Part shown: positions 954 through 6,676 of the stretch, piece by piece
Layout: each line of letters starts with the position of its first letter
Position numbering within the stretch: position 1 is the stretch's first letter
Source of the DNA: an uncultured Bacilli bacterium
GTDB taxonomy: Bacteria > Bacillota_I > Bacilli_A > RF39 > UBA660
Direction: 5' to 3'
Length of the DNA stretch: 32,877 nt
Assembly (NCBI GenBank): GCA_944363795.1
Contig: CALVVG010000009.1
Coordinates: 1 to 32,877, forward strand
Translations under genes and position numbers: made by a program
The notes under the pieces: generated by a model
Seen by the model: only the letters and a program-made list of their open reading frames with translations
The model's database searches: none
What the model was told of the DNA's origin: nothing

Positions 954-3035
954 TTAATTAATGCTGTTTTTCTTTATTATTTCTTCAGCAATTCCTTTTG
1001 GCACTTCTTCATAATGATCAAGTGTCATTGTGAAATTACCACGACCTTGAGTATTTGAACGAAGTGTAGTGGCATAACCAAACATTTCTGCAAGTGGAAC
1101 CATAGCATTAATAGATAATGCGTTGCCACGAGATTCATTTCCCATTGGTTTACCACGACGGCTTGTTAAGTCTCCCATTACGTTACCCATGTATTCTTCT
1201 GGAATAACTACTTCAACTTTCATAATTGGTTCTAGTAAAACTGGTTTACATTTATTTTTTGCTTCTTTCAAAGCCATACTTGCAGCAATTTTAAATGCCA
1301 TTTCTGATGAGTCAACATCATGATATGAACCATCAAACAATGTTGCTTTAACATCTACCATTGGATAACCAGCAAGAATTCCACCAGCCATTGCTTCTTG
1401 CAATCCTTTGTCAGTTACTGGAATATATTCACGAGGAACTACTCCACCAACGATAGCATCAACAAATTCGTATCCTTTTTCAGGATTTGGTTCAAATTTA
1501 ACCCAAACATGTCCATATTGTCCACGTCCACCAGATTGTTTTATATACTTACCTTCACATTCAGCAGTTTGTGTAATTGTTTCACGATAAGCAACTTGTG
1601 GGCGACCAATGTTGGCTTCAACTCCAAATTCATCTTTCATACGACGAACTTGAACTTCTAAGTGTAATTCTCCCATACCGCTAATAACTGTTTGACCAGT
1701 TTCTGGATCAGTTTTATATTTAAATGTTGGGTCTTCTTCAGCAAGTTTTTGTAAAGCAATTCCCAATTTTTCTTGATCAGCTTTTGATTTTGGTTCAATT
1801 GCTTCATCAATAACTGGAAGTGGGAATTCCATTCCTTTCATGATACATGGATTTTTTTCATCACATAATGTATCAGCTGTTGTAGTTGATTTAAGGCCTA
1901 CAGCGGCAGCAATTTCACCACAATATACTTCACTAATTTCTTTACGGTTGTTTGCATGCATTTGAAGTATTCTTCCAACCCTTTCTTTTTCTTGTTTACC
2001 AGCAGCATTTGTACAAAGTACATATGAACCACTTTGTAAGTGTCCTGAATAAACTCGGAAAAATGCTAATCTACCTACATATGGATCAGTCATAATCTTA
2101 AAAGCCATTGCGGTGAATGGTTCAGAATCGCTTGGATGACGTAAAATATCATTTCCATTTTTATCTACACATTCAATAGCAGGAACATCTGTTGGAGCTG
2201 GCATGTAATCAAGTACGGCATCAAGAGCTAACTTAACCCCCATATTCGATAATGCACTACCACACATAACTGGGAAGAATTCGGCAGCTAAAACACCTTT
2301 ACGAATAGCAGCTTTAATATCTTCTACAGAAAGTTCTTCTCCTTCAAGATATTTTTCCATTAAAGCATCATCAAATTCAACAGCTTTTTCAATTAATTCA
2401 GTTCTTTTTTGTTCAACTAATTCTTTTAAATCCTCTGGTATTTCTATTTCTGTAGGATTTTCATGTTCTTCACCATTATAATGGTATGCTTTTCTTGTAA
2501 GCAAATCAATAATTCCATTAAATTCTGATTCAGCACCTATTGGCCATTGAATTGGAGCATAATTTACACCAAGTCTAGATTTAATTGTACCTAGAGTAAA
2601 TTCAAAATCAGCACCAATTTTATCCATTTTATTTGCAAAAATCATTCTCGGTACTTTATATTCTGTTGCTTGACGCCATACAGTTTCTGATTGTGGTTCA
2701 ACCCCAGCATTTGCATCAAGCAAACAAATGGCACCATCAAGAACTCTTAATGAACGTTGTACTTCAACAGTAAAATCTACGTGCCCTGGAGTATCAATAA
2801 TATTAAGACGATATCCCTTCCAGTGAGCAGTTGTAGCAGCACTAGTAATTGTAATACCTCTTTCTTTTTCTTGTTCCATCCAGTCCATTTGAGAAGCTCC
2901 ATCATGAGTTTCTCCAATCTTGTGAGTTATACCAGTATGAAATAATACTCTTTCAGTAAACGTTGTTTTTCCAGCATCAATATGAGCCATTATACCAATA
3001 TTTCTTAATTTATCTAACGATACGTCTCTTGCCAT
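954..3035 (-). CDS. fusA: Elongation factor G
   Basis: EF-G is the translocation GTPase of the ribosome and also acts in ribosome recycling. The protein has the P-loop AHIDAGKTT near residue 15, [13 protein letters not shown] and NKMD motifs, then domains II to V through the GRGQYGHV region to the C-terminal YEEVP. I start it at MARDVS (3035; 693 aa), the family start, with a GGTGA site 5 bases upstream. An in-frame ATG at 3047 would add MVIN and overlaps the rpsG stop, so a coupled longer form is possible. The start at 3035 lies 5 bases past the rpsG stop codon (TGA at 3041-3043), so translation is probably coupled. Confidence 0.97.
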
Positions 3036-3040
3036 ATTTA

Positions 3041-3508
3041 TCACCATCTATAATGAGCAAATGCTTTATTTGCTTCTGCCATTTTATGAGTATCTTCACG
3101 TTTTTTTACAGCGCCACCAGTACCATTTGATGCATCTATGATTTCATTTGCTAAATTAATAGCCATTCCCTTTCCATTTCTTAATTTGGCATAATTAACT
3201 AACCAACGTAGAGCTAAAGTTTGAGCACGATCACCTTTAACTTCAATTGGCACTTGATAGTTTGATCCACCAACACGACGTGATTTAACTTCTAATGCTG
3301 GCTTTATATTTTCTAACGCTGCATTATATACTTCCATTGCTGGTTTTCCAGTTTGTTTTTCTACAATTTCAAAAGCTTCATATAATATTTTTTGTGCTGT
3401 TCCTTTTTTTCCATCAAGCATAATTTGATTAACTAATTTAGTAACTACTTTTGACTTATAAATAGGATCTGGAAGCACATCTCTTTTGATTGCTCTTCTT
3501 TTACGCAT
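3041..3508 (-). CDS. rpsG: Small-subunit ribosomal protein S7 (uS7)
   Basis: S7 nucleates assembly of the 30S head by binding the 3' domain of 16S rRNA. The 155 aa length and the start [15 protein letters not shown] match the bacterial family exactly. It contains the conserved stretch [15 protein letters not shown] and the C-terminal [12 protein letters not shown]. An AGGAGG site precedes the ATG, and the gene sits 20 bases after rpsL. It ends in TGA, which helps show that this organism uses TGA as a stop. Confidence 0.98.
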
Positions 3509-3528
3509 TATAATTTCCTCCTTTTCCC

Positions 3529-3942
3529 TTATTTTTTGTCTTTTTTAGTTCCGTATTTACTACGTCCTTGTTTTCTATCTTGAACTCCATGAGTATCAAG
3601 TGTTCCACGGACAATATGATAACGAACACCAATTAAATCTTTAACACGTCCGCCTCTTACTAAGACAACGCTATGTTCTTGTAAGTTATGTCCTTCTCCT
3701 GGAATATATGCATCTATTTCTTTTCCATTAGAAAGTCTAACACGTGCATATTTTCTCAAAGCTGAGTTTGGTTTCTTTGGTGTTCTAGTAGCAACTTTAA
3801 CACAAACGCCTCTTTTTTGAGGTCCTTTAGCATCTGTTTGCTTTTTTTCCAAAGTATTATATCCAATATTTAATACTGGACTTTTACTCTTTACATTTTT
3901 TTTGCCACGTTTCTTTTTAACAAGTTGATTAATTGTAGGCAT
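3529..3942 (-). CDS. rpsL: Small-subunit ribosomal protein S12 (uS12)
   Basis: S12 lines the decoding centre and influences accuracy and streptomycin response. The protein starts [15 protein letters not shown], is 137 aa long as in Bacilli, and carries the invariant [11 protein letters not shown] loop (wild-type lysines) and the [10 protein letters not shown] segment. An upstream in-frame ATG at 3981 exists, but GGAGG sits just before the ATG at 3942 and the family begins there. It is first in an rpsL-rpsG-fusA operon with its own promoter about 95 bases upstream and a hairpin leader. Confidence 0.98.
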
Positions 3943-3990
3943 AAATCCTCCTTCCATTAACACACACCCTGGTGTATCCAATTTTATTTT

Positions 3991-4021
3991 AAACCAGGTT
4001 CTACCATAGGCAGAACCGTTT
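3991..4021 (-). promoter_or_regulatory. Hairpin leader of the rpsL operon
   Basis: Transcribed on the minus strand, GGTTCTGCC pairs with GGTAGAACC around a TAT loop (3997-4017; one G-U pair). Outer AAAC and GTTT can extend the stem past a 2-base bulge. The predicted transcription start lies a few bases upstream, so the hairpin caps the mRNA. No T-tract follows, so it is not a terminator. A second weak hairpin, ACAC-CAGG-GTGT, lies nearer the rpsL start. Role unknown: r-protein autoregulation or mRNA 5'-end protection are both possible. Confidence 0.5.
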
Positions 4022-4035
4022 TTAAATGCATCATT

Positions 4036-4064
4036 AATATATCATTGTATTATATGATTGTCAA
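4036..4064 (-). promoter_or_regulatory. Promoter of rpsL-rpsG-fusA
   Basis: On the minus strand TTGACA is followed by a 17-base spacer and TATATT. The predicted start point is near 4029, directly before the leader hairpin. The -35 lies just past the stop of the small membrane peptide gene. Confidence 0.75.
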
Positions 4065-4074
4065 GATTTTTTGA

Positions 4075-4185
4075 TTAAAAATTTTGATACAAAACATATA
4101 TAAAATATGCAGCTATCAAAAGTGCAATTAATAATATTGAACTTAAAATCAGCATTTCTGCTAAACCCCATCCTTTATTATTCAT
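4075..4185 (-). CDS. 36-aa membrane peptide with prepilin-like N-terminus
   Basis: This short frame codes for MNNKGWGLAEMLILSS and then a single hydrophobic helix ending LYQNF. Residues 4-12 (KG, then WGLAEMLI) match the shape of a type IV prepilin or ComGC processing site: Lys-Gly, hydrophobic residue, Leu at +3, Glu at +5, MLI at +6 to +8. Nothing follows the helix, so it cannot fold as a normal pilin. An AAGGAG site lies upstream, though its spacing (about 14 bases) is long, and an in-frame stop precedes the ATG. It occupies the place where rpoB and rpoC normally lie. It could equally be a general small membrane protein; function unknown. Confidence 0.6.
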   Translation of the reverse strand: MNNKGWGLAEMLILSSILLIALLIAAYFIYVLYQNF

Positions 4186-4268
4186 TATTTATTTACTGTC
4201 TCCTTTTCTAATCTCTAAATTTTTCAACGTTTTATCATATTTGATTTTTTCTAAATCAATAATATTAT

Positions 4269-4298
4269 ATATTAACACTGCAAAGAAAAAAATGTCAA
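4269..4298 (-). promoter_or_regulatory. Possible promoter for the 36-aa peptide, nested in the rplL terminator
   Basis: On the minus strand TTGACA, part of the 3' arm of the rplL terminator stem, is followed by 18 bases and TAATAT. The T-tract of the terminator forms part of the spacer, so one piece of DNA may both end rplJL transcripts and start the next one. Confidence 0.45.
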
Positions 4299-4320
4299 CA
4301 TTCAATTTCAGTTGACATTT
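4283..4320 (-). terminator. Terminator of the rplJ-rplL operon
   Basis: AAATGTCAAC pairs with GTTGACATTT across an 11-base loop, followed on the minus strand by a run of seven T. It begins 4 bases after the rplL stop codon. Confidence 0.85.
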
Positions 4321-4324
4321 TATT

Positions 4325-4690
4325 TTAAGCTAATTCTACTTCAGCACCAGCTTCAGTTAATTGATTTTTAATTGCTTCAGCTTCTTCTGCTGGAATATTT
4401 TCTTTAAGATTTCCACCATTATCAGCCAACGCTTTAGCTTCAACCAATCCTAAGCCAGTTATTTCCTTAATTATTTTTATAACTGCAATCTTGTTTCCTC
4501 CAGCTGATTTTAACACAACTGTTTTAGTAGATGGGCCTTCTTCAACAGCTGCTGCTGGAGCTGCAGCAACGGCAACTGCCATTGGATCAATTCCAAATTC
4601 TTCCTTCATAGCATCAACTAATTCTTTTACTTCAAGAATTGTCATTTCTTTTAATGCACTTATAAAATTTTCCTTATTTAATTTTGCCAT
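4325..4690 (-). CDS. rplL: Large-subunit ribosomal protein L7/L12 (bL12)
   Basis: L7/L12 forms the flexible stalk that recruits translation GTPases. At 121 aa it has the N-terminal dimerisation helix region, an Ala/Pro-rich hinge (AAAPAAAVEEG, near residues 42-52), and the C-terminal domain with the IKIIKEITGLGLVEAK factor-binding helix. It follows rplJ by 3 bases, as usual, and is closed by a strong terminator. In most Bacillota rpoB would follow; here it does not. Confidence 0.98.
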   Translation of the reverse strand: MAKLNKENFISALKEMTILEVKELVDAMKEEFGIDPMAVAVAAAPAAAVEEGPSTKTVVLKSAGGNKIAVIKIIKEITGLGLVEAKALADNGGNLKENIPAEEAEAIKNQLTEAGAEVELA

Positions 4691-4693
4691 AAT

Positions 4694-5191
4694 TTATTCC
4701 TTCCCTTCCATTTGTTCTGCATATAGGTTTAATCCTATTGCTAAATCTTTAACATATTGCATCATACCACCAGCAAGCATTGTAAGTAAGCCATCGCGAG
4801 ATGGAATAGATGCATATTCATTAATTACAGATAAATCTGCAACACTGCCACTAATTACTCCTACACGAATATCTAATTTATCATGTTTTTTAGCAAATTC
4901 AGATATTATTTTGATAGGTTCAAGCAAAGTTTTACCAAACAAAATTGCATTAGGTCCTTCTAAAAATTGATCTAAATTAATTTTTAATTCATCAGCGGCT
5001 CTTTTAAGCAAAGTGTTTTTATATACCTTTATTTCAGAATCAACATCTTTAAGTTCTCTTCTTAGATTACTTAATTCTTCAACAGTCATTCCTTGATATT
5101 GGAATATAATAACAGATTCACTTGATTTAAGTTTGTTAATAATTTCATCAACAACTTGTTTCTTTTGTTCAAGAATTTTTGTGCTTGCCAT
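4694..5191 (-). CDS. rplJ: Large-subunit ribosomal protein L10 (uL10)
   Basis: L10 anchors the L7/L12 dimers to the 50S stalk base and is known in bacteria to repress its own operon by binding the leader mRNA. The 165 aa protein has the family N-terminus with KKQVVDEI, the core YQGMTVEELSNLR and KNTLLKRA segments, and a C-terminal helix (about residues 140-165) for L12 binding. An AGGAGG site precedes the ATG. The upstream L10 leader and a consensus promoter fit this regulation. Confidence 0.97.
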   Translation of the reverse strand: MASTKILEQKKQVVDEIINKLKSSESVIIFQYQGMTVEELSNLRRELKDVDSEIKVYKNTLLKRAADELKINLDQFLEGPNAILFGKTLLEPIKIISEFAKKHDKLDIRVGVISGSVADLSVINEYASIPSRDGLLTMLAGGMMQYVKDLAIGLNLYAEQMEGKE

Positions 5192-5207
5192 TTTTCCTCC
5201 TTTTTAT

Positions 5208-5303
5208 ATTAGAAAAGCTTCCATTGGGAAGCTCAAAAAGTTTTAAGTTCCCCTCGGTAGGACTTATATTCTGCCTACTGTCTACGGATTTGCTTTTTCT
5301 AAA
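5208..5303 (-). ncRNA. L10 leader (ribosomal protein operon attenuator)
   Basis: The minus-strand transcript carries the hallmark GTAGACAGTAGG and CCTACCGAGG segments (about 5286-5251), the L10 binding fold. The 5' strand TTAGAAAAAGC (5302-5292) can pair with GCTTTTCTAA (5218-5209), which competes with the terminator AGCTTCC-CAAT-GGAAGCT (5233-5216) followed by TTTTC. L10 binding should favour the terminator. The predicted transcription start falls on the first base of the outer stem. Confidence 0.88.
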
Positions 5304-5307
5304 ACGT

Positions 5308-5336
5308 ATTATATTATAATATTAATTAAATGTCAA
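5308..5336 (-). promoter_or_regulatory. Consensus promoter of rplJ-rplL
   Basis: TTGACA, 17 bases, TATAAT: a perfect sigma-A type match. The -35 hexamer lies in the last codons of rplA. The start point near 5301 coincides with the 5' end of the L10 leader. Confidence 0.9.
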
Positions 5337-6024
5337 AGCTATTTTTATCTACTTTAATACCAGGACCCATTGTAGTTGAAATAGTAATATTTTGAATAAA
5401 TATTCCTTTAACAGTACTTGGTTTAGCTTTAGCAATAGTTGTAATAACATACTTTAAGTTTTCTGCTAAATTTTCTTCTGTAAAAGACACTTTACCAATT
5501 ATAGTATGAATATTACCAAATTTATCATTTTTATATGTTACCATACCTTTTTTGATATCTTCAACAATTGCTCCAACTTTGGTAGTTACTGTACCAGTTT
5601 TAGGATTAGGCATTAAATTTCTTGGTCCAAGAATATTACCTATTTTTCCTACTTCAGGCATCATATCCGGAGTAGCTACTACAACATCAAATCCAAACCA
5701 ATTTTCGTTTTTAATTTTATCGATCATATCTTGATCACCCACAAAATCAGCTCCGGCCTTTCTAGCTTCATCAGCAAAAGTACCTTTAGCTATAACTAAA
5801 ACTTTTTTGGTTTTACCAGACCCAAAAGGCAAAGATAATGAACCTTTCATTTGTTGATCTGATTTTTTTGCATCAATGTTTAATTTAATAGCTACTTCAA
5901 CACTACTATCAAATTTAGTAACAGAAGTTTCTTTAACTAACTTAATTGCATCTTCTAAACAATAAAGTTTGTTTTTATCAACATTTTTAGATGCTTCCAC
6001 ATATTTTTTTCCGTATTTTTTCAA
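5326..6024 (-). CDS. rplA: Large-subunit ribosomal protein L1 (uL1)
   Basis: L1 forms the mobile stalk at the E site and in many bacteria also represses the rplK-rplA mRNA. The 232 aa protein has family landmarks KFDSSVEVAIKLNID, LGPRNLMPNPKTGTV (near residue 130-147) and the C-terminal TMGPGIKVD. The start codon is TTG, chosen because AAGGAGG lies 8 bases upstream and MKKYGKKY is the family start. It follows rplK by about 50 bases; a small TTAAC-CACA-GTTAA hairpin precedes its ribosome site. Confidence 0.97.
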   Translation of the reverse strand: MKKYGKKYVEASKNVDKNKLYCLEDAIKLVKETSVTKFDSSVEVAIKLNIDAKKSDQQMKGSLSLPFGSGKTKKVLVIAKGTFADEARKAGADFVGDQDMIDKIKNENWFGFDVVVATPDMMPEVGKIGNILGPRNLMPNPKTGTVTTKVGAIVEDIKKGMVTYKNDKFGNIHTIIGKVSFTEENLAENLKYVITTIAKAKPSTVKGIFIQNITISTTMGPGIKVDKNSFDI

Positions 6025-6076
6025 ATTTTTACCTCCTTAACTGTGGTTAATTAAGCGGACATTTTATAAATTAATT

Positions 6077-6676
6077 TTAATTTTCTTCTTTTTCAGCTTC
6101 TTCATCATCGTGCGTAGGAACTTCAACACTTGAAGCTTCTGCCATTTCCTTAGCTTCTGCTTCTAACTCAGCAAGTTCTGCATCACGTTTTGCTTGTTCT
6201 TTTTCTTCTTCAGCTGCTTCTTTGGCTTGTTCAGCAAGTTCTGCATCATTAACACCTTCAATAGCAATACCCATGTTTCTAGCTGTACCTTCTATTTGTT
6301 TCATTGCTGATTCAACATCATAAGCATTCAAATCTGGCATTTTTTCTTCTGCAATGGCTTTTAAATCTTTTTTTGAAATAGTGGCAACAATTTCATTAGC
6401 GCCTTTTTTACTACCTTTATTAATTTTTGCAGCTTTCTTTAATAAAAATGCAGCTGGTGCTGTTTTTAAAACAAATTCAAAACTACGATCATCATAAATA
6501 GTAATTTCGCATGGTACTACATCACCCATTTTATCACGAGTTGCTTCATTAAATTTTGTACAAAATTCACCCAAATTAATTCCAGCAGGTCCTAATACAG
6601 TTCCAACTGGTGGAGCAGGTGTTGCTTTACCAGCTTCTATTTGTAACTTAATTTTCTTTACGACTTCTTTAGCCAC
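6077..6676 (-). CDS. rplK: Large-subunit ribosomal protein L11 (uL11) with acidic C-terminal extension
   Basis: L11 builds the GTPase-associated centre and is needed for RelA-type stringent signalling. Residues 1-142 are a normal L11: [17 protein letters not shown], the [13 protein letters not shown] linker and the rRNA-binding C-domain ending [12 protein letters not shown]. Residues 143-199 are an extra tail rich in Glu and Ala, probably helical then disordered, ending [10 protein letters not shown]; the family usually stops near 141 aa. The start is GTG at 6676, preceded by AGGAGG; the open frame continues upstream to 6745 but the family start and ribosome site fix it. secE and nusG, usual upstream neighbours, are absent. 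Confidence 0.95.

Follow-up and report, generated by a model that had tools for sequence, protein, structure and literature searches.

A short frame between rplL and rpsL starts like a prepilin

The window analyzed here is a stretch of 32,877 nucleotides from an uncultured Bacilli bacterium (contig CALVVG010000009.1). Between rplL and rpsL it contains an open frame of 36 codons on the minus strand. This locus raises the question of whether so short a frame is a gene and, if so, how its product is related to type IV pilins. The preliminary description had read the frame as a 36-residue peptide with a KG-WGLAEMLI start and a hydrophobic helix, and this was exact when the sequence was read again: the product is MNNKG followed by WGLAEMLILSSILLIALLIAAYFIYVLYQNF. 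The frame, here called the micro-gene, stands alone in the window, separated from rplL by 140 bp and from rpsL by about 100 bp (Table 1). It is not near other pilus genes in the window genome, and the Rfam search found no RNA family at the locus.

Table 1 Features of the micro-gene locus, with positions in the window.
Feature	Position	Strand	Details
36-aa headless prepilin-like CDS, stop included	4075..4185	minus	kept in 22/30 genus genomes; dN/dS 0.19
Leader MNNKG	4171..4185	minus	predicted cleavage after Gly5
Predicted mature 31-residue peptide	4078..4170	minus	Glu5 and a single hydrophobic helix, ending in a short aromatic tail, as read from the sequence
AAGGAGA ribosome-binding-like site	4199..4205	minus	upstream of the micro-gene ATG; rather long spacing; candidate by sequence
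Sigma-70-type promoter of the micro-gene, TTGACA-18-TAATAT	4269..4298	minus	10/12, TG before the second hexamer; overlaps rplL terminator
rplL terminator hairpin, then U run	~4289..4321	minus	-13.9 kcal/mol, z -3.1
Promoter-like site for rpsL, TTGACA-17-TATATT	4036..4064	minus	11/12; downstream of the micro-gene
rplL (context)	4325..4690	minus	TIGR00855
rpsL (context)	3529..3942	minus	ATG at 3942; TIGR00981

Type IV pilins carry a class III signal, a hydrophilic leader that ends in glycine and is cleaved by the prepilin peptidase, and docking into the filament usually depends on Glu5. The micro-peptide has a hydrophobic run of about 21 residues interrupted by Glu5 (WGLAEMLILSSILLIALLIAAYFIYVLY), as is expected of a pilin. 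The likeness to a ComGC-type prepilin start, proposed earlier, holds in part, but tryptophan stands in place of phenylalanine at +1. The leader has five residues, compared with 7-8 in most relatives (for example MKKLNNKG) and with the 6-26 residues given in a review (PMC4471445). Tryptophan at +1 is unusual, and both it and the short leader count against the pilin reading. The frame had also been described as lacking a pilin head, which is correct: it ends 31 residues after the glycine, the C-terminal half of helix 1 bears no globular head, and relatives that do carry a head occupy the same slot.

A candidate promoter is nested in the rplL terminator, as noted before, and its first hexamer sits in the 3' arm of the hairpin. 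Taken alone, this promoter is weak evidence and not significant, with an equal or better score in 26 of 200 shuffles. Most relatives in the genus have a separate promoter for the micro-gene, which lies just upstream of it and has the form TTGACW-N16-18-TATAAT (10-12 of 12).

The micro-gene is conserved and under purifying selection

A profile search of the 30 genus genomes found the micro-gene in 22, with identities of 50-78%, and a search of 99 relatives also placed it in most genomes of the genus. All genus copies end 31-34 residues after the glycine. When 11 independent pairs were pooled, pS was 0.48 and pN 0.13, giving a dN/dS of about 0.19; variation was greatest at codon position 3 and smallest at position 2. 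The preliminary description had named a lack of conservation in close relatives and substitution ratios like those of non-coding DNA as grounds for doubting the gene. Neither was found, since the frame is kept in these 22 genomes and the ratio indicates purifying selection. Because the frame recurs across the genus with a fixed end and a low dN/dS, it is far beyond chance, and the micro-gene is a real gene.

Loss of the micro-gene in the other eight members of the genus was considered and rejected. The locus is probably unassembled in these genomes because rpsL was not found there either, in a search that had no internal positive control, though the same protein query does find rpsL at many other loci. 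Unrelated insertions were observed around the micro-gene in some genus members (L065 6124-9125, L068 6293-7579, and L096 4239-10462), the one in the L068 gap including, for example, a transposase-like frame; the micro-gene stays in place.

The frame could also be a decaying pilin gene or one that is open by chance. Its head is gone, and one more stop would remove the remainder. However, the near-identical end in 22 genomes, the dN/dS, and the promoter that most copies have of their own already contradict this explanation, which we consider very improbable; on the same three grounds a chance frame or pseudogene was ruled out.

The slot upstream of rpsL holds headed relatives in other genera

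Elsewhere in the family, other genera have in this slot a protein of 100-180 residues with an NNxG-WGLxEM start and a two-cysteine head. The head comprises about 80 residues and ends in ...C-x-GYV...YI-x-C-x-NY-x-TEGY. At E 1e-6, the start profile matches 79 of the 243 genomes of the family. Gene order in these genera, where rplL and rpsL are not close, can be rpoB, rpoC, slot gene, and rpsL; at L150, for instance, rpoC (2349-5981) and the slot gene (6038-6211) are followed by rpsL. Judging from this order, the ancestral place of the slot gene is directly upstream of rpsL, after rpoC where rpoBC remains, and rpoBC has gone from it in the window lineage. The earlier placement of the micro-gene in the rpoBC slot is therefore right locally, where rpoB is absent from the slot, but the ancestral place is the one just upstream of rpsL. 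No rpoB was found anywhere in the assembly of the window genome, which is 82% complete.

The start of the slot proteins is strongly conserved, with glycine at -1 in 84 of 84 and tryptophan at +1 in 83 of 84. Sixteen further loci, all outside the genus, are headless as well and have 31-54 residues after the glycine. Glu5 is kept in 20 of the 22 genus copies and in 33 of 46 headed forms but in only 2 of the 16 headless forms outside the genus, which retain G-W-G though most (14/16) have lost the glutamate. Glu5 has been reported to be dispensable for processing and needed for homopolymers, and Glu5 mutants can enter mixed filaments (PMC4471445); a subunit without Glu5 caps minor-pilin tip complexes (PMC10191384).

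An unrooted tree of rpsL-rpsG-fusA requires at least six changes between headed and headless forms, and at least four remain forced when the two oddly placed rows, L089 and L086, are left out. A single headless origin was rejected (AU test, p ~1e-90), and the genus copies form one clade (96/90). Since the headed forms share a homologous head, the natural reading is loss rather than gain, with at least four independent losses, one of them at the base of the genus. At L089, the rpsL-fusA side groups with another genus and the pilin-like gene with the window genus, and this contig is possibly chimeric.

In many other genera the slot gene has a small neighbour on either side, making a set of three. 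The upstream gene encodes a membrane protein of about 90-105 residues, and the downstream gene encodes a protein of about 115-125 residues that starts with an ordinary membrane helix and carries the two-cysteine head as well (head match 43-47 bits). Both small membrane neighbours are without a class III signal. Neither they nor the KGWGL pilin-like protein matched a family above cut-off. This three-gene cassette was seen upstream of rpsL in sister genera at L073 (5706-6746), L168 (5629-6735), L140, and other loci, and its 90-105-residue membrane protein has the pattern DYFRxR...GLGYKxYxYxR...FGPFFIKER. In the window genus, neither cassette neighbour adjoins the micro-gene.

The head of the slot relatives appears to be pilin-related

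No Pfam or NCBIfam pilin model reached its cut-off for the micro-peptide or for the headed relatives. The only Pfam match of the micro-peptide was PF04021, at 11.6 bits against a cut-off of 23.7, and NCBIfam gave none. A PF07963 search of the window genome hit nine other places, the micro-gene not being among them. The headed relatives showed faint matches to ComGE, ComGD, and ComGF, below cut-off.

Searched through the whole window genome, the head profile matched best to the N-terminal region of a KGFTLTEL prepilin (E 0.002). Against a set of eight proteins, the profile matched three prepilins at E 2e-6 to 2e-4, with matches starting about 37-40 residues from the N-terminus. We also examined an AlphaFold model of one headed relative (pLDDT 82, pTM 0.54). 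The three best VIA-align rows for this model were PilJ, a pilin of C. difficile (Z 5.9), and the pseudopilin entries XcpGHIJK (4.8) and EpsI:EpsJ (4.6), all of them under 8 and so below the level of a secure fold match; Foldseek returned no significant PDB match for the model. The head of the slot relatives thus appears to be related to pilins by profile and, weakly, by predicted fold. The preliminary description had left the choice between a micro-pilin, a processed helix, and a look-alike. A chance look-alike is the least likely of the three because the head of the full-length slot relatives is akin to canonical KGFTLxEL prepilins of the window genome and, at modest Z, comes closest in predicted fold to pilins and pseudopilins.

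The same profile bears on whether the helix could be completed by a separately encoded head protein, as in Geobacter, where PilA-N and PilA-C provide a precedent (PMC5174107, PMC6201914). In six headless lineages outside the genus (L086, L140, L141, L143, L145, and L146), the next gene does encode a membrane-anchored two-cysteine head protein. However, the window micro-gene has no adjacent head gene, and the profile found only one strong head-like gene in the 30 genus genomes, a 324-residue protein in G006, where the locus is unassembled; a split head encoded elsewhere in the genus was rejected, no other convincing candidate having been found. The head gene of the cassette also sits beside full-length forms and is therefore not a fission product. 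We consider a two-part pilin improbable, and it is largely excluded for this genus.

Type IV pilus machinery is encoded in the window genome

The preliminary description had tied the pilin reading to a prepilin peptidase and a pilus ATPase in the same genome, and both are present, together with a platform protein. A 249-residue protein with A24_N and Peptidase_A24 domains (bifunctional prepilin peptidase, PilD) is encoded on contig C2 beside a GspF/PilC-type protein. A GspE/PilB-type ATPase is encoded elsewhere in the genome, which also contains several canonical KGFTLxEL prepilins. The pilus genes are scattered among housekeeping genes, with PilC and PilD following dnaG and a sigma factor (L043 4442-6787) and PilB lying near a ruvB-like gene (L045 8059-9351).

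Other pilus-related loci were observed. A Tad-like cluster at L046 (G000 C11 1-8000) comprises TadA/B/C-like proteins and two CpaB-like proteins, and its GC content is 0.30, compared with 0.23-0.28 in all but one of the other contigs looked at. At L044 (G000 C42 1-12000) there is another type IV pilus cluster, whose Clostridia-like KGITLVALVITIIVLLILAGVSI pilins occur as three near copies; it is possibly a contaminating contig or a transfer. An open frame of 667 residues at L049 (G000 C25, from about 1894 onward) combines a KGFTLTEL prepilin signal with a von Willebrand A-like stretch and a DESGSMSGS motif, and looks like a modular pilin adhesin.

Co-occurrence of PilD with the slot gene gives no support, in a test without power: PilD is missing in 7 of 79 slot-positive genomes compared with 12 of 164 other genomes (present in 91% vs 93%). 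Two fairly complete genomes, G241 (92%) and G290 (98%), contain the slot gene and show neither PilD nor any detectable T2SSF protein. PilD and PilC adjoin each other in the window genome, so their joint absence may reflect a single assembly gap.

These two genomes are among the observations that fit a different reading, in which the product descends from a pilin but has become a single-pass membrane microprotein with no part in a pilus. It would be uncleaved, or its cleavage irrelevant; it would have another membrane partner, and N-x-G-W-G would be a binding or helix-capping motif. The retention of G-W-G but not of Glu5 in most headless forms outside the genus, the failure of every pilin family model to reach its cut-off, and the two flanking small membrane genes without a class III signal in other genera are also in its favour. 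On the other hand, nearly all genus copies keep Glu5, a PilB/PilC/PilD set exists, and the missing PilD and PilC may be an assembly gap. We regard this as a serious alternative, though one that we think somewhat doubtful.

A possible role for a headless pilin helix

That the gene is real, that its position is orthologous, that the head has been lost, that the frame is under selection, that most relatives have a separate promoter for it, and that the genome encodes type IV pilus machinery are all observed. The account that we put forward to join them is that the product is a headless, pilin-derived peptide with a class III signal, a PilD substrate that acts as a minor subunit or assembly partner; we judge its chances to be even. 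The micro-gene would descend from a full-length pilin-like protein encoded upstream of rpsL in many genera of the family. After loss of the C-terminal head at the base of the genus, the start (leader glycine, W1, G2, L3, and E5) and the membrane helix would have been kept by purifying selection. The gene is probably expressed as a monocistronic message, and the peptide would be inserted N-in, with its short leader inside. PilD from contig C2 would then cut after Gly5 to release a helix of 31 residues. This bare helix may pack on the N-terminal helices of pilins that do have a head, either within the membrane or at one end of the pilus (base or tip). Its role could be that of a subunit, minor or priming, or of a partner in the membrane by which assembly is tuned. 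With Glu5, the peptide keeps the residue on which docking usually depends; without a head, it could not itself supply surface contacts.

A more far-reaching proposal, which we offer tentatively and think rather unlikely, is that the naked 31-residue helix serves PilD as a functional substrate and goes on to prime, plug, or tune a type IV pilus, that the repeated loss of the head at this conserved position before rpsL means that the helix alone carries the function, and that the cassette of the sister genera is a new small pilin-like system.

The repeated losses of the head are natural experiments on what a pilin cannot do without. Should the bare helix prove to be processed and used, a pilin could be as small as about 31 residues, less than the Flp pilins or Geobacter PilA-N. 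Otherwise, the micro-gene would be an example of a pilin start turned into a membrane microprotein. The slot genes also form a conserved family of uncultured gut Bacilli that curated models leave unnamed and whose short members are likely skipped by gene callers. The family is not described in the open-licence literature searched.

Comparison with known pilin systems

The ComG/GspG-type prepilins (GFxxxE start; TIGR02532, PF07963) share with the window peptide the glycine at -1, L3, E5, and the hydrophobic stretch. The window peptide differs in having tryptophan at +1 and glycine at +2, in falling below every cut-off, and in being headless throughout the genus. The minor pilins and pseudopilins PilJ, XcpGHIJK, and EpsI/EpsJ are the best structural neighbours of the headed relative, but the Z scores are low (4.6-5.9) and the comparison concerns a part that is missing from the window protein.

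Flp/Tad (type IVb/IVc) pilins are likewise very short, and type IVb prepilins of down to 44 residues are known, in Caulobacter (PMC4471445). The window prepilin would be shorter still, at 36 residues, and does not match an Flp model. The machinery beside PilD in the window genome is GspE/PilB- and GspF/PilC-like, whereas the Tad-like cluster is separate, on contig C11.

Geobacter PilA-N is a truncated type IVa pilin with an inferred origin from full-length pilins and a separate PilA-C (PMC5174107, PMC6201914, PMC10191384). It resembles the slot family in that a pilin is reduced to its helix and in that some lineages here have a head protein next door. In contrast to the window peptide, which has 31 residues, W1, no head partner in the genus, and a location outside any pilus cluster, mature PilA-N has 61 residues, F1, and E5 and is encoded in a pilus cluster. 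A conductive-nanowire reading by analogy with Geobacter was set aside, as nothing in the analysis supports it. Geobacter PilA-N and the Flp pilins appear to be the closest precedents, and the predicted window peptide would be shorter than any pilin that we found described.
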